Notes under the pieces: model-generated | What the model saw: only the letters and a program-made list of their open reading frames with translations | Databases searched by the model: none | Told to the model about the DNA's origin: nothing | Made by a program: the position numbers and the translations under genes | In this document: positions 461-32,954 of the stretch, one piece after another | Position numbering within the stretch: the stretch's first letter is position 1 | Layout of the letters: each line of letters begins with the position of its first letter | NCBI GenBank assembly: GCA_947169265.1 | Contig: CAMVPC010000003.1 | Coordinates: 1-64,000 of the forward strand | Source: an uncultured Prevotellaceae bacterium | Lineage (GTDB): Bacteria; Bacteroidota; Bacteroidia; Bacteroidales; Muribaculaceae | Direction: 5' to 3' | DNA: 64,000 nt

Positions 461-1969
461 TTAGGCCAGTTTCTCGAGGATTTGCGCGAAGTCGGTCTTG
501 CGCATGTCACCGGTCTTGCCCAGCGTGCTGTGGAAAGCGAGGGCAATGTCGTGGTTCATGAGGATGTGACCGTTCTTCTTGCACAACTTGAGGTATTCGC
601 GCAACAGCGGGCGATACACGGGATGGGCGGCGTGCTCGATAATTTCCTCGGCGCCCTGGATGGGGTCCTTGAAACGGAGGTCGGCCACGCCCTGGTCGGT
701 GACGATGATGTCGACCGAGTGGCCCGTGTGGTCCACATGGCTCACCATGGGCACGATGGTGCTGATGCAGTCGTCCTTCTTAATCGACGGGCACAGGAAG
801 ATGCTGGTGTAAGCGTTGCGCGTGAAGTCACCGCTACCGCCGATGCCATTCATCAGGCGGGTGCCGCTCACGTGCGATGAATTGATGTTACCAAAGAGGT
901 CGGCCTCGATAGCCGTATTCATCGACACGACACCGATGCGGCGAATCACCTCGGGGTTGTTACTGATTTCGCTCGGGCGCATGAGCAGCTTGTCGTGCAA
1001 CTCGGGCTTGCTGAAGAATTCCATCATCGCCTCGCGCGAGAATGTCATCGAGCAGGTGCTGGCAAACTTGCAGTGGCCGCTCTCGAGGAGCTTTAGCACG
1101 CTGTCCTGCACGACCTCGGTATACATCTCGAAGGGAGGAATCTCGTCGCTGTGCTCAAGAGCGTCGAGCACGGCGTTGGCGATGTTGCCCACACCGCTTT
1201 GGATGGGAAGGAACGACTTGGGCATGCGGCCCTGGCGCATCTCGTTGACAAGGAAGTCGCACACGTTCTCGCCAATCTTGCGCGTCACGTCATCAACAGG
1301 GGTGAACTTGCTCACCAGGCCCAGAGGCTCGCTCGTGCGCACCACGCCCAGCACCTTCTTGGGGTCGACATGGGCCGTAGGCTTGCCGGCGCGATCGCTG
1401 GCGCGGTAGATAGGAATCTCGCGGCGCGCGGGAGGATCGAGAGGCACATAGATGTCATGCAGGCCGCGAATCGTGTCGGGAAGCTGGTCGTTGATTTCGA
1501 TAATCACCTTCTCGGCCACTTGCAGCCACGTGGGAGTGTTGCCCACAGCGGTACCCAACAGGAGCTCACCATCGTCGGTAATGCTTTGCACCTCCACGAT
1601 AGCCACGTCCATCTTGCCGTAGTAGCCATAGCGGAATTCCTGCGCCAGCTCGCTCAAGTGGCGGTCGTTGTAGTGCACCTCACCGGCATTGATGTGGTTG
1701 CGGAGCTCGCCCAGCGACTGGTAGGGCGTGCGGTAGTTGAGCGCTTGCGCGCGCGACAGCTCGCCATCGGTGGGGTCGTTGGTCGACGCGCCACTAAAAA
1801 TGTTCACCTTGAACTCGCGTCCTTCCTCATGCTCGCGGCGGGCCTTAGCGGCGATGGCGGCGGGCACTTTCTTGGGACAACCCGGGGCGGTGAAGCCACT
1901 CACGCCCACATTCATTCCATTTTTCACAAACTGCGCGGCCTCTTCGGCCGTAAGAACGGGATAAATCAT
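461..1969 (-). CDS. Succinate/acetyl-CoA CoA-transferase (acetyl-CoA hydrolase family)
   Basis: The 502-residue protein matches the acetyl-CoA hydrolase/transferase family along its length, most like acetyl-CoA:succinate CoA-transferases of anaerobes. These move CoA between acetate, succinate or propionate in the cytosol and serve the succinate-propionate fermentation of Bacteroidales. Visible marks are the N-terminal VSGFTAPGCPKKVP segment, the glycine-rich GVGNIANAV loop near 259-267, and the EMYTEV segment whose Glu285 corresponds to the glutamate that forms the acyl-CoA intermediate. Length is normal for the family. It is a single-gene unit with its own consensus promoter and a strong terminator. 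The exact acyl preference cannot be read from the sequence. Confidence 0.9.
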   Translation of the reverse strand: MIYPVLTAEEAAQFVKNGMNVGVSGFTAPGCPKKVPAAIAAKARREHEEGREFKVNIFSGASTNDPTDGELSRAQALNYRTPYQSLGELRNHINAGEVHYNDRHLSELAQEFRYGYYGKMDVAIVEVQSITDDGELLLGTAVGNTPTWLQVAEKVIIEINDQLPDTIRGLHDIYVPLDPPARREIPIYRASDRAGKPTAHVDPKKVLGVVRTSEPLGLVSKFTPVDDVTRKIGENVCDFLVNEMRQGRMPKSFLPIQSGVGNIANAVLDALEHSDEIPPFEMYTEVVQDSVLKLLESGHCKFASTCSMTFSREAMMEFFSKPELHDKLLMRPSEISNNPEVIRRIGVVSMNTAIEADLFGNINSSHVSGTRLMNGIGGSGDFTRNAYTSIFLCPSIKKDDCISTIVPMVSHVDHTGHSVDIIVTDQGVADLRFKDPIQGAEEIIEHAAHPVYRPLLREYLKLCKKNGHILMNHDIALAFHSTLGKTGDMRKTDFAQILEKLA

Positions 1970-2051
1970 CGTTTTTGTTGATTTGATAGTTATTTTATAG
2001 ATGTTATTGACTTGAATTGCCGTCCCGTCGCGGGGCGGTGCTTGCAGCCTG

Positions 2052-2081
2052 CAAAGTTACACCAACTTCGACAAATATCAA
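2052..2081 (-). promoter_or_regulatory. Bacteroidetes-type promoter of the CoA-transferase gene
   Basis: On the minus strand the -7 box TAACTTTG (2059-2052) lies 19 bases after a TTG -33 element (2081-2079). This is the TTG-N19/20-TAnnTTTG arrangement known for Bacteroidetes. The resulting leader of about 75 bases contains a GC-rich hairpin near 2023-2041. Confidence 0.75.
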
Positions 2082-2129
2082 AATCCGTTGCGCTAAAACC
2101 GCTTGTGGCGCGGCCCTTTTCATACCTTT

Positions 2130-2777
2130 TCATGCATTCGGTGGCCCCACGGCATTTGCGGGAGCGAAGATGGCGGCAGCAGTAGCGCGCGCGGCAGCGA
2201 GTGTCGCGGCGACGTCCTCGCCCCGGGCCTCGGCCACACGAGCGGCAACGGTGGCGATAGTCAAGCCGCTGTCGTCGGTTTCGAGCAACAGACGCGAGCC
2301 GGGCAGGGAGCACGCTGTGGCGGCGTTGAAACGTGGTCCCAGCGTGATGTAAAGGCCCGCGTTGAGCAACTGGCGGGCCAGTTGGGGCTTGCCGCGGAAT
2401 CCGTGCACCACCCAGGGTTGTGCCGGCCGCAAGCGCGCGCGCATGGCGAGTATCACATGGAATGCCTTCACGCAATGGAGTATGAGCGGTTTCGACAACT
2501 CCTCGCTCATGGCGACATGCCGCGCCAGCACTTCTTGCTGCACATCGGGCGACGGACTGCGAAGCGCGTCGAGTCCGGTCTCACCCAGCGCCACCACCTG
2601 TGGCGAGCGTGCCGCCGTGGCAAGCTGTTGCCAGTGCTCGACGGTAACCTCACCGGCCTCCCACGGATGAATTCCCACCGAATAGCACATTCCGGGCACC
2701 GGCGAGAACGCCGCCGGCGACACGTTCACAATGGCACCGCGCGCCGCGTGGTGCGTGTGGCTGTCGGTAATCGTCAT
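2130..2777 (-). CDS. TatD-family metal-dependent hydrolase
   Basis: A 215-residue TatD-type TIM-barrel hydrolase. Metal ligands of the family are visible: the DSHTH start (His7, His9), GETGLD with Glu66, His101 in LILHC, His125 in VVHGF and Asp168 in ETDD. Family members are metal-dependent 3'-5' DNases or related hydrolases in the cytosol. It is shorter than E. coli TatD (about 260) and belongs to the compact Bacteroidetes form. The start codon overlaps the yidD stop by four bases (ATGA), so the two are translationally coupled. The true substrate is unknown. Confidence 0.85.
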
Positions 2778-3028
2778 GGCACGGGGTCGTAGCCGCTACC
2801 ACCCCACGGGTTGCAGCGCGCGATGCGCTTGATGGCGAGCCACATGCCCTTGATGGGGCCGTGCTTCTTGATGGCCTCGATGGCATAATTGCTGCAGGTG
2901 GGGGTGAAGCGGCACATGGGCGGCGTGAGCGGTGAGATACACTTTTGATATATCTTGATGGGAATCAGCAGTAGCCACATCATCAGCCACTTAACAGGAA
3001 AGAGCAGTTTCTTGAGAAGTTCCATCAT
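2774..3028 (-). CDS. yidD: Membrane protein insertion efficiency factor YidD
   Basis: An 84-residue protein with the YidD signature: a hydrophobic N-terminus ([22 protein letters not shown]), then [15 protein letters not shown], then the C-terminal [12 protein letters not shown]. YidD sits at the inner membrane and helps YidC-dependent insertion of membrane proteins. The start was placed at the ATG at 3028, because the longer reading frame upstream runs through rnpA. It overlaps rnpA by 38 bases and tatD by four, the conserved rnpA-yidD order of many bacteria. Confidence 0.93.
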
Positions 3029-3419
3029 GTTCGCTGGCTTGCGCGGCAATGCGCTCGAGCAACTGCCGCATTTTTTCTTCGATGACGCCGTAGTCGCTGA
3101 GCGACGACGACAGGTACACAAAAGCCACGTCCACACGCCTTCCTTTCGCCTCGAGCGCGGGCAAGAGCGCCGCGCGGTTGAGGCGGTAAGCCTCGCGTGT
3201 GCGCCGCCTGATGAGCACGCGGTCGACGGCGTGGCGCAACTTTTTCTTGGGCACCGACACAAGGAATCGCGCCGGGGCCGTGCCGTTCTCTCCATGCGGA
3301 AGAATATTGTACACGGCCCTTAGCGGATAAGCGATGATACTTCGTCCCGAGGCAAAGAGCGCATCGATGCGAGTCAGCCCGCACAATTTCTCGCTCTTAT
3401 AAAGCCTGTTGCCGGTCAT
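2991..3419 (-). CDS. rnpA: Ribonuclease P protein component
   Basis: The 142-residue protein carries the RNase P protein signature [15 protein letters not shown] at residues 67-81, preceded by the [16 protein letters not shown] strand. It binds the RNase P RNA and helps remove tRNA 5' leaders. The C-terminus is longer than in E. coli (119 residues) and overlaps the start of yidD. It lies downstream of serS on the same strand, separated by a short spacer with a degenerate octamer repeat. Confidence 0.93.
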
Positions 3420-25500: not shown

Positions 25501-25633
25501 AATGAAAAACAAAGTTTTTTAAATTTTGCATTGCCGAAACGCCGCCTAATTTGCGCGATGCGAACATTAGTGCAAGTTGAGCGCAAAAACAAAGTTTACT
25601 TTGGTTTTTGCCGAAACGCCGCCTAATTTGCGC
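25475..25633. repeat. Two tandem copies of a palindromic intergenic repeat
   Basis: Copy 1 (25475-25556) and copy 2 (25566-25633) share ATTAGTGCAAGTTGAGCGCAA at the left and TTGCCGAAACGCCGCCTAAT, followed by TTGCGC, at the right. The inner arms differ: copy 1 has GCAATGCAAAAT paired to ATTTTGCATTGC, copy 2 GCAAAAACAAAG paired to CTTTGGTTTTTGC. Both therefore keep a hairpin although its sequence changed. Similar TGCAAGTYGAGCGCAA elements occur between genes in other Bacteroidales (from memory). Confidence 0.8.
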
Positions 25634-25686
25634 CGCGTTGGGTCAAATTTGTGAAGCGGGTGGGAGGATATGTGAAAACATTTCGT

Positions 25687-25694
25687 TAACTTTG
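25687..25694 (+). promoter_or_regulatory. -7 box for the susC/susD operon
   Basis: TAACTTTG matches TAnnTTTG and lies 43 bases before the chosen susC start. No TTG at the ideal -33 spacing was found. Confidence 0.5.
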
Positions 25695-25736
25695 TGGCTC
25701 GCTTCAACACCTTATCACATAATAACCGACTGTTTC

Positions 25737-28424
25737 ATGAAACAACGACTCACAGCAACAGCAATAGCGCTCGCGGCATGCCTGGCGGCTCTCGCCGGCG
25801 AAGACTCGCCCACCGCCGTCGACAGCGTGGCGCCCGACACCCCTAACCTGATTACCGAGAAAATGATGAACGACAAGCAGGTGACCAATCCGCTCGAAGC
25901 CATCAACGGACGCGTGGCGGGACTCACCATCACGCGCGGCAACAACGGTGTGGCCGCCATGCAGGCCGTGCGCGTGCGCGGCACCACGTCGCTCACCGGC
26001 GGCAACGACCCGCTCATCATCATCGACGGCGTGATGGGAGACCTGCGAACCCTCTCGAGCGTCTACCCGGCCGACATCGAGAGCTTCAACGTGCTCAAAG
26101 ACGCCACCCAAACCGCACAATATGGCTCGCGGGGCGCCAGCGGCGTCATCGAGGTGACCACCAAGAAAGGCGCCACGGGGCGCGCCACGGTGACCTACAA
26201 CGGCAGCTACGGCTTCTCCCGCGTGGCCAAGAACCTGAAAATGCTCGACGCCGACGGATACCGGCGCGCTGTGGACGAGCGCGGCTTGATGCTCATCGAC
26301 CTGGGCGCGAACACCAACTGGCAGCGCGTGCTTGAACAAACCGGCTGGCAACACGACCACCACCTGGCCTTTGCCGGCGGCGGCAAGGACAACGGCTACC
26401 GTGTGGCTCTCGGTTTCATGGACCACAACGGTGTCATCGTGCACGAGAAAATGCGCAACTTCACGTCGAACATGAGTATGTACCAAAACATGTTCCACGA
26501 ACGCCTCAAGGTGGAGCTGGGCATGTTTGGCAACGTGCTCAAGGAAAATACCGCCATCTACGACACGCAAAAAACATTCTACTCGGCGGCCGCCTTCAAT
26601 CCCACCTTCCCGGCAGCGAAAAACGCCACCGGTGGCTACGACGGCTTCACCTATGCCAACCAAATCAACCACCCCCTCGCCTTGATGGACAGCCGCACCG
26701 CCGACAAGACAACCCACCTGAGCACCCACGCGCGACTCACCTTCAACGCCGGACACGGACTGAGTGTGAGCGCTTTCGGAGCCTACAGCCACAACGAGGT
26801 GCAACGCGACCAGTACCTGCCCACCACCATCTGGGCCAACGGGCAGGCCTACCGCGGCACCGACAAGACCGAGTCGCTGCTGGGAAACATCACCCTCAAC
26901 TATAAGGTTACCACCGGCCTACACAACGTGGACCTGCTCGCGCTCGCCGAGGCGCAGCGCGACACCTACTCGGGATTTTGCACCACTACCACCAATTTCA
27001 ACAACAACGACCTGGGATTCTATACCATCCAGGCCGGCGCACTGAGCCTGTGGGAGGGAACACGCAGCTACCGCCACCGCCCCACGATGACAGCCTTCAT
27101 GGGACGCGCCACATGGGAATATGCCGGCCGCTACGCCATCACCGCCACTGCGCGCGCCGACGGCTCCTCGAAGTTCGCCGCCAGCCACAAGTGGGGATTC
27201 TTCCCCTCCATCTCGGGCGCCTGGACCCTCTCGCGCGAGGCCTTCATGCGTCGCGCCACCTGGCTCGACAACCTCAAGCTCACCGCCGGCGTGGGCCTGG
27301 CCGGCAACCAGGGCGGCATCGACAACTACGCCTCGATGTACATGGTGCAGCCCATGGGCGTCGTACCCGTGGGTGTGAACATGGCCGTAGCGCTGGCCGA
27401 AGCACGTAACGCCAACCCATACCTCAAGTGGGAAGTGAGACGCACCTTCAACGTGGGCCTCGAAGCCTCGCTACTCAAGGGACGGTTGCTGGCCAACGTC
27501 ACCTACTACACGAGCAAGACCCGCGACATGCTCTATAACTACACGGTGCCCACACCACCCTTCACTTACGGCACGCTGCTGGCCAACCTGGGCGCGATGA
27601 GCAACAGCGGCGCCGAGTTCTCGCTCGGCATCACGCCGGTGGCCACCCGCGACTGGGAACTGAACATCAACGCCAACCTCACTTACCAGCACAACAAACT
27701 CCTCTCGCTCAGCGGCAACTACCACGGCTACGACATCACCGCGCCGCAATATGTGGCCATCGCTTCGCTCAACGGCGCCGGTTTCCACGGCGGCAACAAC
27801 AACATCGTGTATCAAATCGTGGGGCAGCCCCTTGGTGTCTTTTACCTGCCCCACTGCACGGGACTCGTCGACGACGGTAACGGCAACCTCGAATATGCCA
27901 TCGCCGACCTCGACGGCAACGGCGTCATCGACATCGAGGACGGCAAGGACCGGCGCGTGTGCGGACAAGCCGTGCCCAAACTGTTACTCGGCTCCAACAT
28001 CAGCCTGCGCTTCCGTCAATGGGACCTCTCGGTGCAAATCAACGGCGCTTTCGGCCACAAGGTGTATAACGGCACGGCCCTCACCTACATGAACATGGAA
28101 TCGCTGCCCGGATACAACGTGCTCGCCGAGGCACCACGGCATCGCATCGCCGACCAAACCGCCACCGACTACTGGCTCGAGCGCGGCGACTACGCCAACA
28201 TCGACTACGTCACCATCGGGTGGAACGTGCCACTACCCAAAGGAAAAGCCGTGAGCCGACTGCGGCTCTCGCTCACCGTCAACAACCTGGCAACCATCAC
28301 CGGCTACTCGGGCCTCACGCCCATGATCAACAGCAGCAACGTCAACGCCACGCTGGGCGTCGACGACAAGCGCTCCTACCCCGTGTCGCGCTCCTGCGCG
28401 CTGGGCGTCGCCATAACCTTTTAA
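25737..28424 (+). CDS. SusC/RagA-family TonB-dependent outer-membrane transporter
   Basis: An 895-residue TonB-dependent receptor of the SusC type. The start was put at ATG 25737, where a signal peptide (MKQRLTATAIALAACLAALAG) begins; the longer frame would cross the promoter. The plug follows at once: KQVTNPLEAINGRVAGLTI, RVRGTTSLTGGNDPLIIIDG, LKDATQTAQYGSRGASGVIEVTTK. These are SusC hallmarks. The usual N-terminal carboxypeptidase-regulatory-like (CarboxypepD_reg) domain is missing, so it is a short form. It ends in an aromatic residue (AITF), as outer-membrane barrels do. It is paired with susD, and no glycoside hydrolase or sensor is adjacent. Confidence 0.93.
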   Translation: MKQRLTATAIALAACLAALAGEDSPTAVDSVAPDTPNLITEKMMNDKQVTNPLEAINGRVAGLTITRGNNGVAAMQAVRVRGTTSLTGGNDPLIIIDGVMGDLRTLSSVYPADIESFNVLKDATQTAQYGSRGASGVIEVTTKKGATGRATVTYNGSYGFSRVAKNLKMLDADGYRRAVDERGLMLIDLGANTNWQRVLEQTGWQHDHHLAFAGGGKDNGYRVALGFMDHNGVIVHEKMRNFTSNMSMYQNMFHERLKVELGMFGNVLKENTAIYDTQKTFYSAAAFNPTFPAAKNATGGYDGFTYANQINHPLALMDSRTADKTTHLSTHARLTFNAGHGLSVSAFGAYSHNEVQRDQYLPTTIWANGQAYRGTDKTESLLGNITLNYKVTTGLHNVDLLALAEAQRDTYSGFCTTTTNFNNNDLGFYTIQAGALSLWEGTRSYRHRPTMTAFMGRATWEYAGRYAITATARADGSSKFAASHKWGFFPSISGAWTLSREAFMRRATWLDNLKLTAGVGLAGNQGGIDNYASMYMVQPMGVVPVGVNMAVALAEARNANPYLKWEVRRTFNVGLEASLLKGRLLANVTYYTSKTRDMLYNYTVPTPPFTYGTLLANLGAMSNSGAEFSLGITPVATRDWELNINANLTYQHNKLLSLSGNYHGYDITAPQYVAIASLNGAGFHGGNNNIVYQIVGQPLGVFYLPHCTGLVDDGNGNLEYAIADLDGNGVIDIEDGKDRRVCGQAVPKLLLGSNISLRFRQWDLSVQINGAFGHKVYNGTALTYMNMESLPGYNVLAEAPRHRIADQTATDYWLERGDYANIDYVTIGWNVPLPKGKAVSRLRLSLTVNNLATITGYSGLTPMINSSNVNATLGVDDKRSYPVSRSCALGVAITF

Positions 28425-28461
28425 CACAAAACTCAACACCCGTTTACTCGTTTACTAAAAA

Positions 28462-30084
28462 ATGAAACCATATCACTTTTTCTTTTTACTGATGGGGGCC
28501 TTGACGCTCACCTCGTGCAACGAATTCCTCAAGGAGGACCCCAAAGAAATCCTGCCCGCCAGCGACACCTTTGAGAACGACAACGACCTCTACCTCAACG
28601 GCGTGGCCGCTCTTTACCTGAACGTGGGCGGCTTCAACGACAGCGAGGGCCTGCAGGGCACCCGCCGCGGCGTGTGGGACCTCAACACGTTCACCACCGA
28701 CGAGGCCATCGTGCCCACACGCGGCACCGACTGGCTCGACGGAGGGTTTTGGCAAGGACTCTTCACCCACAACTGGGGCACCGAGAACAGCGCCATCAAC
28801 GACACCTGGAGCTACCTGTACCGCAGCATACTGCGCTGCAACGTGTCGCTCGAGCGCATGAAAAACTACACCGAGACCACCGGCACCGACGTGAGCGGCT
28901 ACCGCGACGAGGTGCGCGCCCTGCGCGCCTTGTTCTACTTCTATGCCCTGGACCTCTACGGACGCGTGCCCGTTTTCACCTCGCCCGACCCCGACAACGA
29001 CCAGCTCTCGCCGCGACCCCGCAGCGAAGTCTTCGACTTCGTGCGCCGCGAGCTGCTTGAGACGGTGCCACGCCTCGCGCGCGACCGCAGCAACCACGTG
29101 GGCACCTACTATAGCCGCATGACACAAGGCGTGGGCTACTTCCTGCTCGCCAAGCTCGCCCTCAACGCCGAAGTCTACTGCCACGACAACTGGACGTCGA
29201 CACCGCGCCCCGACGGCAAGCAAATCATTTGGCACATCGGCGACACCACGTGCGACACCTGGCAGGCCGTGAGCTATTTTTGCGACCGCCTCTACCAACT
29301 CGGCTACCGCCTCGAGGACCACTTCGAGAACAATTTCCTCGTCAAGAACGAGAACTCCATCGAGAACGTGTTCACCATACCCATGGACAAACAACTCTAT
29401 ACCAACCAGTTCACTAACATGTTCCGCTCGCGGCACTACAACCACGCAGCCGCCATCGGACTCAACGGCGAGAACGGGCCATGCGCCACCATCGAGGCTC
29501 TCAAGGCCTTCGGGCTCGGCACCCAAGCGCAAGACGCGCGCTTCAACCTCACTTACTACGCCGGACCCGTCAACGACCTCAAAGGAAACCCGGTGCTGCT
29601 CGACGACGGCACGCCGCTCATCTACGAGCCCTGGCAGGTGAAACTCGACTTGAGCAGCTCACCCTACGAGAAAACAGCCGGAGCACGCATGAAAAAATAT
29701 GCCATCGACCTGGTGGCCACTAAAGACGGCAATCAAAGCGACAACGACATCGTCCTGTTCCGCTATGCCGACGCCCTGCTCATGCAGGCCGAGGCACTGC
29801 TGCGCGACATGGGACCCAACGAAACCTCGACGGCCCTCGTCAACCAAGTGAGGACACGCGCCGGCATGCCCGCCCTCGACAACGTCACCCTCGACGACCT
29901 GCTCGACGAGCGACTGCGCGAGCTCGCCTGGGAAGGATGGCGACGCAACGACATGGTGCGCTACGGCACATTCAATCGCGCTTACACCGACCACCCCGCC
30001 GACCCCGACAACCACACCATCGTCTTCCCCATCCCCGCCATCTTCCTCAACCTCACCGCCGCCCCCCAAAACCCCGGCTACTAA
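28462..30084 (+). CDS. SusD/RagB-family nutrient-binding lipoprotein
   Basis: A 540-residue surface lipoprotein with lipobox LTSC (Cys about residue 19), followed by NEFLKEDPKEILP. The N-terminal SusD helices and the C-terminal SusD motif FRYADALLMQAEALLR, LDDLLDERLRELAWEGWRRNDMVRYG are clear. It caps the SusC channel and binds the ligand at the surface. It starts 37 bases after susC, in the same operon. The final residues (PQNPGY) are the common SusD end. The substrate cannot be told without neighbouring enzymes. Confidence 0.95.
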   Translation: MKPYHFFFLLMGALTLTSCNEFLKEDPKEILPASDTFENDNDLYLNGVAALYLNVGGFNDSEGLQGTRRGVWDLNTFTTDEAIVPTRGTDWLDGGFWQGLFTHNWGTENSAINDTWSYLYRSILRCNVSLERMKNYTETTGTDVSGYRDEVRALRALFYFYALDLYGRVPVFTSPDPDNDQLSPRPRSEVFDFVRRELLETVPRLARDRSNHVGTYYSRMTQGVGYFLLAKLALNAEVYCHDNWTSTPRPDGKQIIWHIGDTTCDTWQAVSYFCDRLYQLGYRLEDHFENNFLVKNENSIENVFTIPMDKQLYTNQFTNMFRSRHYNHAAAIGLNGENGPCATIEALKAFGLGTQAQDARFNLTYYAGPVNDLKGNPVLLDDGTPLIYEPWQVKLDLSSSPYEKTAGARMKKYAIDLVATKDGNQSDNDIVLFRYADALLMQAEALLRDMGPNETSTALVNQVRTRAGMPALDNVTLDDLLDERLRELAWEGWRRNDMVRYGTFNRAYTDHPADPDNHTIVFPIPAIFLNLTAAPQNPGY

Positions 30085-30099
30085 TCCCCCGCCCCCGCC

Positions 30100-30134
30100 G
30101 GTCCCCCGTGCCGCGGCTCCGCCGCGGCCCCCGG
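30100..30134 (+). repeat. REP-like GC-rich palindromic repeat, copy A
   Basis: The unit starts GGTCCCCCGTG, then CCGCGGC-TCC-GCCGCGG (a 7-base stem with 3-base loop), then CCCCC. Copy B, 40 bases on, is identical over 34 bases. Outer GCCGG/CCGGC can close the structure. It begins shortly after the susD stop. Confidence 0.8.
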
Positions 30135-30139
30135 CCAGC

Positions 30140-30173
30140 GGTCCCCCGTGCCGCGGCTCCGCCGCGGCCCCCG
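30140..30173 (+). repeat. REP-like GC-rich palindromic repeat, copy B
   Basis: Identical to copy A over 34 bases and in the same orientation. It ends about 58 bases before the transposase start codon. Confidence 0.8.
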
Positions 30174-30196: not shown

Positions 30197-30227
30197 TTGT
30201 CCCTCCCGGCTTTTTCCCTTATCTTTG
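30197..30227 (+). promoter_or_regulatory. Consensus promoter of the transposase gene; mRNA probably leaderless
   Basis: TTG (30197-30199), 20 bases, then TATCTTTG (30220-30227) is an exact Bacteroidetes promoter. The ATG at 30232 lies only five bases after the -7 box, so the transcript should begin at or within a few bases of the start codon. Confidence 0.75.
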
Positions 30228-30231
30228 CGCT

Positions 30232-31200
30232 ATGGACTGGGAACAATACCGAGCAAAGAAACCCTGGGCCGGCGAGGCCAAGCCCTCCATGAAACGTCGG
30301 CGCGTGGGCCACGACTACCACGGCCGTTGCATCTATATGCTCACCCTCACCGTCAAGCAACGGCGCCCCCTCTTTGGCCACATCCCCGGCAATGGTGACG
30401 AAGAGCCCGCCGTCATGCACCTCACGCCTCTGGGGCAGGCCGTCAGCGATGCCGTCCAAGGCCTTCCCGGCTATTACCCCGCCATAGAAATCCTCGCCTG
30501 CCAACTCATGCCCGACCACCTCCATGTCGTCATCTTCGTGCACAACCGCCTCCCCGTCCACCTCGGCCAGGTCATCAGCGGCTTCAAGGCCGGCTGCAAT
30601 CGCGCCTACCGCAACCTCGGCCTCAACACCTCCATCCCCACCCTCTGGGAAGAAGGCTTCAACGACACCATCCTCGATGGCGATGGCCAGCTACAGCGAA
30701 TGATAGACTACGTCAGTGACAACCCGCGCCGTTACGCCATCAAGCGCGCCCACCCCGACCTCTTCCGCGTCCGGCGCCATGTCACCGTGGGTGAGCACAC
30801 CTTTGCCGCAATGGGTAACATTTTCCTGCTCGACGCCCCACAACTCATCCAAGTGCAATGCTCACGCAAAATCACCCCCGGGCAACTCGCCGCGCAGCGC
30901 GACCACTGCCTGCAACAAGCCCGCAACGGTGCCGTCGCCGTCTCGCCCGCCATCAGCCCGGGCGAGAAAGACATCATGCGAGCCATCTTCGACGCCGGCT
31001 TCCCCGCCATCATCCTGCGCGAAAACGGCTTCGCACCACTCGCCAAGCCCGGCGGACAACGCTTCAACGCCTGCGCCGAGGGACGCCTCCTGCTCCTCGC
31101 CCCCTGGCAGCACCACAACCGCCGCATCGCCATCCGGCGCCACCAGTGCCTCTCCCTCAACCAAATGGCCCAAGCCATCTGCAACCGCCCCCACCCATAA
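30232..31200 (+). CDS. REP-associated tyrosine (Y1/HUH) transposase with DprA/SLOG-like C-terminal domain
   Basis: The protein has 322 residues. Residues about 25-175 form a Y1 transposase domain: YMLTLTVKQRRPLFG, the HUH motif MPDHLHVVIF (His96, His98) and IDYVSDNPRRY with candidate nucleophile Tyr160. RAYT proteins of this class nick single-stranded REP hairpins. Residues about 205-316 are extra. The run VQCSRKITPGQLAAQRDHCL, then GAVAVSPAISPGEKDIMRAI and AIILRENGF, lines up with the Rossmann core of DprA (VGSRKATPYG..., SGLARGIDAAAH, TIAVLGCG). FNACAEGRLLLLAPW and RRHQCLSLNQMAQAI match the later strands. The domain call is my reading, not a search result. REP-like repeats flank it on both sides. 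Confidence 0.8.
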   Translation: MDWEQYRAKKPWAGEAKPSMKRRRVGHDYHGRCIYMLTLTVKQRRPLFGHIPGNGDEEPAVMHLTPLGQAVSDAVQGLPGYYPAIEILACQLMPDHLHVVIFVHNRLPVHLGQVISGFKAGCNRAYRNLGLNTSIPTLWEEGFNDTILDGDGQLQRMIDYVSDNPRRYAIKRAHPDLFRVRRHVTVGEHTFAAMGNIFLLDAPQLIQVQCSRKITPGQLAAQRDHCLQQARNGAVAVSPAISPGEKDIMRAIFDAGFPAIILRENGFAPLAKPGGQRFNACAEGRLLLLAPWQHHNRRIAIRRHQCLSLNQMAQAICNRPHP

Positions 31201-31220
31201 CAAAGCCGCCCCCAGCCGCC

Positions 31221-31254
31221 GGTCCCCCGTGCCGCCGCTCCGCCGCGGCCCCCT
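31221..31254 (+). repeat. REP-like GC-rich palindromic repeat, copy C
   Basis: The same 34-base unit as copies A and B with two visible differences, one in the left palindrome arm (CCGCCGC for CCGCGGC) and one near the 3' end (CCCCCT for CCCCCG). It lies 20 bases after the transposase stop in the same orientation, so the gene is bracketed by direct repeats. Confidence 0.75.
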
Positions 31255-31724: not shown

Positions 31725-32954
31725 CTAATTAAGCAACAGGTTGTAGAGGGCGGTGACATCGCTGCCGCTCACCACGTTGTCGCCGTTCACGTCGCCAGGG
31801 TTATAGACAAAGATGGCACACCACCCCGTTTCGCCGCTTGTCGTGGTGACCGTGATGGCAGTCATACCAGCCTTAAGAGCCGTCACGAGACCATTTTCGT
31901 CCACCGTGGCCACGGTGGAGTCGCTGGAGGTCCAAGTGGCATCCTCCACGCCTTCGGCCACAACCTGCAACGTGTCGCCAGGTTTCATCTTCTCCATCCT
32001 CGTGGTGAGGCTAAAGGGAGAGGGAGGTGTCGGCGGCGTGCCGCCCTCCTGGGTCACGGTGCAACTGCTGTTCGGCAACTGGTGCTCGGTGCCGTCCACC
32101 TCACCGGCGATGATGTTGGAGATTTGGATAGTCTTCGGGCCACTGAATGAGTCGTCGGCAATGATGTTGAACACCACCAGTGCGCCGCTGTTGCCGCTGA
32201 TGGTCTTCACGTTTTGCGATGCGATGAGGATGCGGATGGCGCCCGATGAGAGCATCTGGCTCGAAATCGTGTGGTTGCGATTCTTGCGGTCGGTGAGCTC
32301 AAAGATATAGTCACCGTCTTCCTGCTCGACGGTCAGGCCCTCGGGCAGGGTGAGCTCTGCCTGGATGGCGGTGTAGGTGTACTCGTTGTCGAGCATGATT
32401 TCCACTTCCTTGGTCTCACCGGGGGCGATGGTGAAGTCGTTGATGTAGAAGCGGTCGTTGTCGCCCGCAGGCGGCACATATCCCTCTTGTGTCACCTTGC
32501 AACTGCTGTTCGGCAACTGGTGCTCAGTGCCGTCCACCTCACCGGCGATGATGTTGGCGATTTGGATAGTCTTCGCGCCACTGAACGAGTCGTCGGCAAT
32601 GATGTTGAACACCACCAGTGCGCCGCTGTTGCCGCTGATGGTCTTCACGTTTTGCGATGCGATGAGGATGCGGATGGCGCCCGATGAGAGCATCTGGCTC
32701 GAAATCGTGTGGTTGCGATTCTTGCGGTCGGTGAGCTCAAAGATATAGTCACCGTCTTCCTGCTCGACGGTCAGGCCCTCGGGCAGGGTGAGCTCTGCCT
32801 GGATGGCGGTGTAGGTGTACTCGTTGTCGAGCATGATTTCCACTTCCTTGGTCTCACCGGGGGCGATGGTGAAGTCGTTGATGTAAAAACGGTCTTGTGC
32901 GGTGGCAGCGAGGGCTGCCACCGTGCACAAGAATAATAAAATTGACTTTTTCAT
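31725..32954 (-). CDS. Secreted protein with two cohesin-like modules, a Big2 domain and a terminal half-dockerin
   Basis: The 409-residue exported protein has signal peptide MKKSILLFLCTVAALAATAQ. Two almost identical modules of about 146 residues follow, each DRFYINDFTIAPGETKEVEIML...LPNSSC.VTQEG, a beta-rich pattern like cohesin domains. Next is a bacterial Ig-like Big2 domain (DATWTSSDSTVATVDENGLVTALKAG), then one F-hand calcium repeat, GDVNGDNVVSGSDVTALYNLLLN, at the very C-terminus. Dockerins normally have two such repeats. It starts seven bases after the 1480-residue GLUG gene and is probably co-transcribed. Likely a surface adhesion or assembly protein. Confidence 0.8.
   Translation of the reverse strand: MKKSILLFLCTVAALAATAQDRFYINDFTIAPGETKEVEIMLDNEYTYTAIQAELTLPEGLTVEQEDGDYIFELTDRKNRNHTISSQMLSSGAIRILIASQNVKTISGNSGALVVFNIIADDSFSGAKTIQIANIIAGEVDGTEHQLPNSSCKVTQEGYVPPAGDNDRFYINDFTIAPGETKEVEIMLDNEYTYTAIQAELTLPEGLTVEQEDGDYIFELTDRKNRNHTISSQMLSSGAIRILIASQNVKTISGNSGALVVFNIIADDSFSGPKTIQISNIIAGEVDGTEHQLPNSSCTVTQEGGTPPTPPSPFSLTTRMEKMKPGDTLQVVAEGVEDATWTSSDSTVATVDENGLVTALKAGMTAITVTTTSGETGWCAIFVYNPGDVNGDNVVSGSDVTALYNLLLN
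32060..32936. repeat. 438-bp in-frame tandem duplication within the cohesin-like gene
   Basis: The two module copies (about 32060-32497 and 32498-32936) are offset by exactly 438 bases, or 146 codons, and differ at only about a dozen positions over roughly 410 bases. Long stretches such as that from about 32160 to 32440 are practically identical. The duplication is recent or kept uniform by gene conversion. Confidence 0.85.

Follow-up and report, generated by a model that had tools for sequence, protein, structure and literature searches.

In the window, by which we mean the whole 64,000-nucleotide stretch of DNA that was analysed, one gene almost certainly encodes a REP-associated Y1/HUH nuclease joined to a truncated DprA-like domain. 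The open reading frame (ORF) starts with an ATG at 30232, has its last coding nucleotide at 31197 and closes with a stop at 31198-31200 (Table 1). An earlier note on this DNA had correctly placed the ORF, the HLH at residues 96-98 and Tyr160 in IDYVSDNPRR, and had proposed that a RAYT is fused to a DprA/SLOG domain. This architecture is upheld by the intact HUH motifs, by profile similarity and by the predicted fold. The description of the added part as the DprA core needs amending: the homology stands, and the retained part is truncated, lacks GxAxGID and is nearer to a family of small standalone DprA-like proteins than to full DprA.

Table 1. Coordinates of the gene, its domains and its flanking elements in the window
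Feature	Position	Strand	Remark
REP-like hairpin copy 1, 23 nt (CCGT foot, 8-bp stem, TCC loop)	30106..30128	+	
REP-like hairpin copy 2	30146..30168	+	
TATCTTTG, fits the -7 promoter box TAnnTTTG	30220..30227	+	box start 12 nt before the ATG
Fusion CDS, 322 aa, stop included	30232..31200	+	start region aligned in relatives
Y1/HUH REP-transposase domain, residues ~20-180	30289..30771	+	
HUH motif codons H96-L97-H98	30517..30525	+	H96 and H98 invariant in relatives
Catalytic tyrosine Y160 of the Y---NP signature	30709..30711	+	invariant in relatives
DprA/SLOG-like C-terminal domain, residues 195-318	30814..31185	+	profile and fold comparison
REP-like hairpin copy 3, one stem mismatch	31227..31249	+	

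The nuclease half and its place among RAYTs

The N-terminal half matched the NCBIfam model REP_Tyr_transpos over residues 85-167 (E 8.8e-11, 41.9 bits, under the 80-bit cut-off) and Pfam Y1_Tnp over residues 85-163 (E 8e-4, 19.9 bits, under the cut-off of 23). We assessed conservation in a diverse alignment of 28 members (A1) and in a second alignment of 43 rows (A3). The residues H96, H98, Y160, N164 and P165 are invariant in both (28/28 and 43/43 rows). All 28 members of A1 matched the REP_Tyr model at E ≤ 1 (best 3.6e-14), and 25 of them matched Y1_Tnp at E ≤ 10 (best 4.7e-8). Among 121 distinct fused ORFs, [ND]HxH was found in 117 and the Y...NP pattern in 120. Two features that define RAYT class 2 were found here: the protein has the HUH motif and a single catalytic tyrosine with Y---NP, and REP-type hairpins flank the gene.

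Class 2 RAYTs, as described in PMC6006769, likewise have a Y1/HUH core with Y---NP, short hairpins flanking the gene and few, divergent full-length copies per genome. The genome of the window holds four full-length copies, counting that of the window, and the other three are 44-49% identical to it. An IS200/IS605 transposase was ruled out by this low identity of the full-length copies and by Y---NP instead of Y---Q. A fifth copy in the same genome (L005 / L006, contig 32 of G000) carries an insertion between residues ~131 and 136, at the place where Prevotella genes carry REP DNA. By eye, the DHLH and WE of the window protein are the motifs given for subclass 2.2 in Table 1 of PMC6006769, whereas its YVSDNP differs from the YIHYNP of that subclass. 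All three differ from those of subclass 2.4, which are NH[IFV]H, WQ and YIxNNP (PMC6006769). The window gene further departs from class 2, as that paper presents it, in its DprA-like C-terminal domain and in a hairpin foot of C[CT]GT, not GTAG. C-terminal domains are reported for other Y1 subclasses (HTH/DnaA-like in 2.1 and a domain of its own in 2.3), and the words DprA, Rossmann and fused do not occur in the main text (PMC6006769).

The C-terminal domain and its relation to DprA

The C-terminal half alone had no Pfam or NCBIfam match at E ≤ 1, so its resemblance to DprA had to come from profile and fold comparison. When the A1 rows were scanned against Pfam one by one, DNA_processg_A was matched in 1 of 28 (E 0.11) and an unrelated Fascin model in one (0.0019); single sequences therefore do not settle the DprA identity. 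We searched the A1 profile against PDB sequences and detected HUH transposases (6e-5) and the H. pylori DprA chains 5mll, 4ljr and 4ljk (E ~0.008). With a profile of the C-terminal domain (A4), the same DprA chains were detected at E ~0.1, followed by ribosomal protein S3 at 0.42. Searched in 296 Bacteroidota genomes, A4 gave matches at E ≤ 1e-3 in seven, namely its own genome and six others, and all six non-self proteins match Pfam DNA_processg_A. Four of these lie above the cut-off of 29.6 bits (L144 and L147 with 158, L148 with 232 and L149 with 70), L148 having the DprA winged helix in addition, and two lie under it (L145 with 24.2 and L146 with 27.7). The standalone protein of the window's own genome (L141) reaches 29.7 bits, barely above the cut-off. 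Conversely, a search with a single small DprA-like protein, that from L146, as the query retrieved the window's domain at E 1.2e-4. The proteins L212, L213, L214 and L217, retrieved with the same query at E 1.1e-4 to 7.4e-4, are DNA_processg_A proteins with 99-103 bits.

We compared the profiles directly with hhalign, using ten small standalone DprA-like proteins (A6) and the 14 DNA_processg_A rows of the order (A5). A4 aligned with A6 over 121 columns (score 77.5, P 8.9e-13, probability 97.8%) and with A5, the DprA profile, over 109 columns (score 30.1, P 4e-4, probability only 34%); the alignment of A6 with A5 had P 2.9e-6 (88%). The best of 100 column shuffles scored 21.4 in each of the two comparisons, for which the observed scores are 77.5 and 30.1, and the further controls scored 13.2 and 17.4 (reversed targets) and 17.9 (HUH part). 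Pairings that had previously been drawn by eye were reproduced by hhalign: CSRKIT with SRKAT, the VSPAISPGEK stretch with that of VSGLAxGID, AIILRENGF with TIAVLGCG, and the LNQMA helix with the RNRIIAGL helix.

The AlphaFold2 model, computed with 43 rows, has a pLDDT of 86.3 and a pTM of 0.79. The modelled tail comprises strand 205-207, helix 216-231, strand 235-238, helix 243-254, strand 259-262, helices 268-271 and 276-282, strand 286-290 and helix 303-317. We searched the model against the PDB with Foldseek. Among the best 50 of 847 matches, ranks 1-44 are 30 HUH transposase rows, including the REP transposase 4er8, and 14 DprA/ShosA rows, all with probability 1.00; ShosA 8zva is the top non-HUH fold match among the matches listed. 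Ranks 45-50 are other proteins (probability 0.07-0.91, E 0.02-0.04), the value of 0.91 belonging to a designed ferredoxin fold. The earlier note had made its reading depend on a significant profile match to DprA-like families and on a Rossmann/SLOG fold of the tail. The A4 and A6 profiles provide such matches, and the tail model is Rossmann-like and matches DprA/ShosA.

It is scarcely credible that the resemblance to DprA is a chance likeness of an unrelated Rossmann-like tail. Such a reading could appeal to the lack of a Pfam or NCBIfam match for the tail alone and to the low probability of its direct hhalign comparison with DprA, but it is contradicted already by the control comparisons, and the profile searches in both directions, hhalign with its controls, Foldseek and the DNA_processg_A matches all agree. 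On the evidence of profiles and model, residues ~195-318 are a homologue of the front part of the DprA/SLOG Rossmann domain.

Like DprA (Pfam DNA_processg_A; 4ljk/5mll; S. pneumoniae 3uqz), the added domain has a collinear Rossmann core from GN..LL to the RNRIIAGL-type helix. The homology begins at GN..LL (G195, N196), which corresponds to GD..LLD of H. pylori and GN.dLL of S. pneumoniae DprA, and both the homology and the protein end after the RNRIIAGL-equivalent helix. Unlike DprA, the fusion lacks the last Rossmann strands and all other DprA domains, is joined to a nuclease and has no GxAxGID. This motif is replaced by SPxISxxEK, which is similar to SGFHSxIEK of the small DprA-like family, and the conserved S238, S242, E245 and K246 occupy its position. 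The motifs of the C-terminal domain are GN..LL.xP..V.CSR, S-P-x-I-S-x-x-E-K, KPxG, GRLLL.APW and LNxLA, and its invariant residues in the A1 rows are N196, S238, E245, P273, C281 and N310.

Single-strand DNA binding by DprA of H. pylori J99 needs R48, R49, K133 and R139 (PMC4489622). Of these pocket residues, R48 corresponds to R212 in the fusion (R in 24/28 rows of A1 and 41/43 of A3), R49 to position 213, which varies (no more than 12/28 A1 rows have R or K there), and R139 to L309 of the window protein, and K133 has no certain counterpart in the alignment. Other conserved basic residues are K272 (27/28; 43/43) and R303 (27/28; 41/43).

The best profile match of the added domain (P 9e-13) is to the small DprA-like proteins that occur unfused in Bacteroidota (L141, L145 and L146; about 150-160 aa), with which it has the motifs CSRK, S-xxxS-xxE-K and GRLL.xP[FW] in common. 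These proteins are encoded by separate genes, and both the RN arginine and a final strand (LADEIxI), missing from the fusion, are retained in them. The gene of this kind in the window's genome (L141, 1447-1902, minus strand) adjoins a minus-strand neighbour at 1913-3379, whose 488-aa product has Schlafen AlbA_2 and RecG C-terminal-like domains. In L146, from a distant Bacteroidota genome, the standalone DprA-like gene (1435-1920) precedes a separate REP-type HUH transposase gene (2483-2974) on the same strand by about 600 bp, and the transposase has a repeat-like insert. Both halves of the fusion are neighbours there, possibly by chance.

Distribution, descent and REP-like hairpins

We surveyed the family, in which P0001 matched in 95 of 198 genomes. 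The fusion is present in at least 59 of the 198, its own genome included, counting matches that extend into the C-terminal domain (in a few genomes only through a match with a reported internal stop). In the order survey, A1 matched in 155 of 295 genomes, mostly through the HUH part; the rows reaching the C-terminal domain, among the matches listed, come from the window's family and from f69, f91, f105, f130, f150 and f160. Among 589 candidate stretches on species-level genome contigs, at least 573 are relatives of some part of the protein. The best 80 relatives by similarity belong to Muribaculaceae, Prevotella/Prevotellaceae, Bacteroidaceae, Porphyromonadaceae, Bacteroides and other Bacteroidales, and are mostly gut and rumen MAGs. 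The DprA-like RAYT fusion is common in gut and rumen Bacteroidales. The survey of this order, which had been proposed in advance, shows it to be widespread and not peculiar to the window. Outside Bacteroidales, the A4 search of 296 Bacteroidota genomes, a thin sampling, revealed no fusion.

We built a tree of the HUH domain from 98 rows, of which 79 are fused and 19 non-fused, taking every fourth of L055-L115 and the best-scoring fetched non-fused ones. All 79 fused rows and L168 fall on one side of a 100/99 branch, in a tree for which the program warned of long branches meeting (L164 with non-fused rows). L168 was counted as non-fused, yet its C-terminal domain is present in another frame, and because it sits in the fused clade the fused label needs two changes on the tree. 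Several separate fusions are unsupported, as there is one clade whose sole exception, L168, has the domain in another frame. In these sequences, a single fusion event is apparently the simplest reading.

Selection was assessed in 15 pairs, some with a locus in common, three of which were unusable for the C-terminal domain (two saturated, one almost unchanged). The dN/dS of the C-terminal domain is 0.04-0.20 in 11 of the 12 usable pairs, and that of the HUH domain is 0.06-0.21 in the same 12. The exception is the window gene against L007, with 0.48 for the C-terminal domain; L007 has a reported stop at its extreme C-terminal end, and both of its domains are whole. These rates point to purifying selection on the added domain that is about as strong as on the nuclease. 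A plasmid origin was rejected, the search of plasmids having found one HUH-only record, as was a phage origin, since viral contigs gave 1 of 47 candidate stretches, with the HUH part only. In PHROGs, the fusion had a weak transposase match (E 0.086).

The flanking repeats to which the earlier note had referred are real. They form three 49-nt units (30084-30132, 30124-30172 and 31205-31253), each with an 8-bp stem and a 3-nt loop, and the DNA fold z-scores of hairpin copies 1, 2 and 3 are -2.33, -2.78 and -1.65 (modest). The window hairpin has the same layout as the REP of the Stenotrophomonas maltophilia group 3 REPtron, which has 23 nt, a perfect 8-bp palindrome and a 3-nt loop, and unlike it the foot is CCGT and not GTAG (PMC8266576). 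Allowing up to three mismatches, we found the hairpin in the window genome in three copies only, all at the gene, and this confinement gives no sign of REP dispersal in that genome. The 49-nt repeat was accordingly rejected as a dispersed REP family of the window genome. Within the genus, a degenerate hairpin pattern is present in 16 of 61 genomes with 1-6 copies (reversed control 0 in all 61), and G193 has six copies on six contigs.

Hairpins with a C[CT]GT foot, a loop starting with TC and changed stems occur at least once in 14 of the 24 relatives' loci examined (L007, L009, L011, L038-L045, L047, L048 and L051, two of which repeat a gene fetched twice). On inspection by eye another three rows are spurious, and the hairpins of the window itself escaped the filter; this survey therefore describes a pattern and is not a statistic. 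In the hairpin set, 4 of 8 pairs changed on both sides, which we do not count as proof of covariation because the hairpins were picked for pairing. Among 107 loci, 35 have ≥13 nt in common between the upstream and downstream flanks, as compared with 1.7% of 3000 swapped pairs. L031 among these is a run of N, L070 is an edge artefact and four repeat the same gene, which leaves 29, and not every stretch common to both flanks forms a stem by itself.

The hairpin of the Prevotella branch, with the core GTTGCGTTGNCAACGCAAC or GTTGCTGTGNCACAGCAAC, is not that of the window. It sits in frame within the gene, between HUH and the tyrosine, and also beside the gene; in L067, L075 and L103 it lies on both sides of the gene. 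In-frame REP insertion at this place is reported for RAYT subclass 2.4 (PMC6006769), to which the Prevotella branch is alike in this respect, and the window gene has no in-frame REP between HUH and the tyrosine. We compared the insert with some 50 control windows per locus from elsewhere in the gene, and at 21 loci out of 73 it has more sequence in common with the gene's own flanks than these have (p<0.05), where chance would give some 3-4. Exact sharing extends over 17-39 nt at 13 of these 21 loci, and no tabulated control window exceeds 12. The 58 loci from L053 on account for all 21, and the 15 in L037-L052 contribute none. We counted the core in the 13 Prevotella-branch genomes behind the exact-sharing loci: 12 have 2-18 copies, of which some may belong to paralogous genes, against 0 for the reversed control, and in 10 of the 13 the copies are spread over at least two contigs. 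G795 and G796 have only two copies, about 500 bp apart, and G800 has none. In L053, L062 and L080, the linker between HUH and the tyrosine is built of in-frame tandem DNA repeats, which have perhaps expanded from REP DNA.

The hairpin counts and the interruptions in some relatives bear on whether the window gene could be an inactive relic of an ancient REPtron, with the flanking hairpins as leftovers. A relic would agree with the low copy number of the hairpin in the genome (three, one of them mismatched in the stem) and with interrupted relatives such as L026 and L168. The ORF is open with all catalytic residues intact, the two nuclease motifs are kept in nearly all of the 121 distinct fused ORFs and dN/dS is low in most pairs, all of which argue against it, and we consider a relic quite improbable.

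Upstream of the gene, the candidate promoter element fits TAnnTTTG, which we take to be the consensus of the Bacteroidetes -7 promoter box. Of 100 distinct upstream regions taken from relatives, 51 have the pattern in the 40 nt before the ATG picked by script, compared with 1.5% of 40-nt locus pieces, and its commonest start is exactly 12 nt before the ATG (18 occurrences). With the box starting 12 nt before the ATG, the mRNA would be leaderless or nearly so. Two ORFs directly upstream in the window (25608-30084) read by eye as a SusC/SusD-like pair, and the first hairpin starts about 20 nt past the end of the second. Beyond the gene, the minus-strand ORF 31725-32954 contains two 300-nt copies (32044-32343 and 32482-32781) that are 97% identical; by eye, it has a duplicated domain with a dockerin-like end.

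Possible roles of the added domain

The REP enzymes of E. coli and Stenotrophomonas recognise and cut single-stranded REP hairpins. Because of REP transposase biochemistry (PMC8266576), the HUH domain of the fusion would be expected to recognise and cut single-stranded REP near the hairpin with Y160. The fusion enzyme is reasonably likely to be active in REP cutting.

The earlier note had suggested that the added module could guide or control REP mobilisation, which would be one conceivable use of it. The overall explanation to which we give a slight preference combines a class 2 RAYT that cuts REPs with a DprA front part that acts on single-stranded DNA. In an ancestor of this Bacteroidales lineage, and apparently on one occasion only, a class 2 RAYT would have acquired the front part of a DprA/SLOG-type Rossmann domain. 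The DprA-like domain would bind neighbouring single-stranded DNA without sequence preference, or would pair two enzyme molecules on it. This might keep the cut ends together and the nuclease in place where DNA is exposed as a single strand, for instance at the lagging-strand template. DprA Rossmann domains bind single-stranded DNA and dimerise, and their dimerisation is tied to DNA binding (PMC4489622, PMC12386762). By analogy with DprA, we regard single-strand DNA binding or docking by the added domain as an evenly balanced proposition. RecA loading by the fusion appears unlikely, because nothing of DprA beyond the front part of its Rossmann domain is retained.

The main rival to this DNA-holding role is suggested by the DprA-like antitoxins. 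The C-terminal domain may be a SLOG-type ligand sensor, in which a nucleotide or a similar small molecule would switch the HUH nuclease. PsyrA is a DprA-domain antitoxin, and the partner proteins of ShosA and PsyrA differ from that of the fusion. Some of the nearest relatives of the added domain match PADLOC PsyrA (the small gene of L141 with E 3e-13, that of L146 with 3.9e-12), and L141 also matches PADLOC ShosA (0.0032). ShosA itself is weakly similar to the small family (chain 8zva with E 0.57; chain 9vzo, a 'DprA-like antitoxin' by its PDB name, with 0.62), and the fusion has in common with ShosA and PsyrA a DprA-type fold, with 8zva as its best non-HUH fold match among the matches listed. 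The conserved S238, S242, E245 and K246 at the GxAxGID position would also suit a sensor. The glycine-rich phosphate loop, however, is not kept, and unlike its small relatives the fusion itself matches neither PADLOC model at E ≤ 1. We consider ligand sensing somewhat unlikely.

The domain could instead be purely structural, a platform for dimerisation or for docking of proteins (e.g. replication or recombination proteins) that contacts neither ligand nor DNA. DprA Rossmann domains do dimerise (PMC4489622), and the retained part is truncated with the DprA pocket partly lost. The conservation of the domain, with N196, S238, E245, P273, C281 and N310 invariant and K272 and R303 each in 27/28 rows, exceeds what a scaffold would appear to need, and dimerisation of DprA is itself linked to DNA binding (PMC4489622, PMC12386762). 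We consider a purely structural role unlikely, a little more so than ligand sensing.

Returning to the DNA-holding role, we tentatively propose that a domesticated RAYT lineage took up a DprA-family module, so that REP cutting and the capture or protection of single strands would be combined in one polypeptide. This may couple the spread of REPs, including their insertion into the transposase gene, to single-stranded DNA at forks or during DNA uptake.

We found no description of a RAYT/HUH fusion with DprA/SLOG in the full text of open-licence PMC papers. With the caution that this scope calls for, a RAYT with a DprA-type domain is apparently an undescribed variant of the REP transposases. The fusion adds a nuclease to the partners of DprA/SLOG domains, beside the antitoxin-type ones. 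For the questions of how REPs are mobilised and why bacteria keep RAYTs, the large group of Bacteroidales RAYTs with a conserved DprA module offers a concrete handle: a defined domain, cognate 23-nt hairpins and relatives with REP copies in frame inside the transposase gene.
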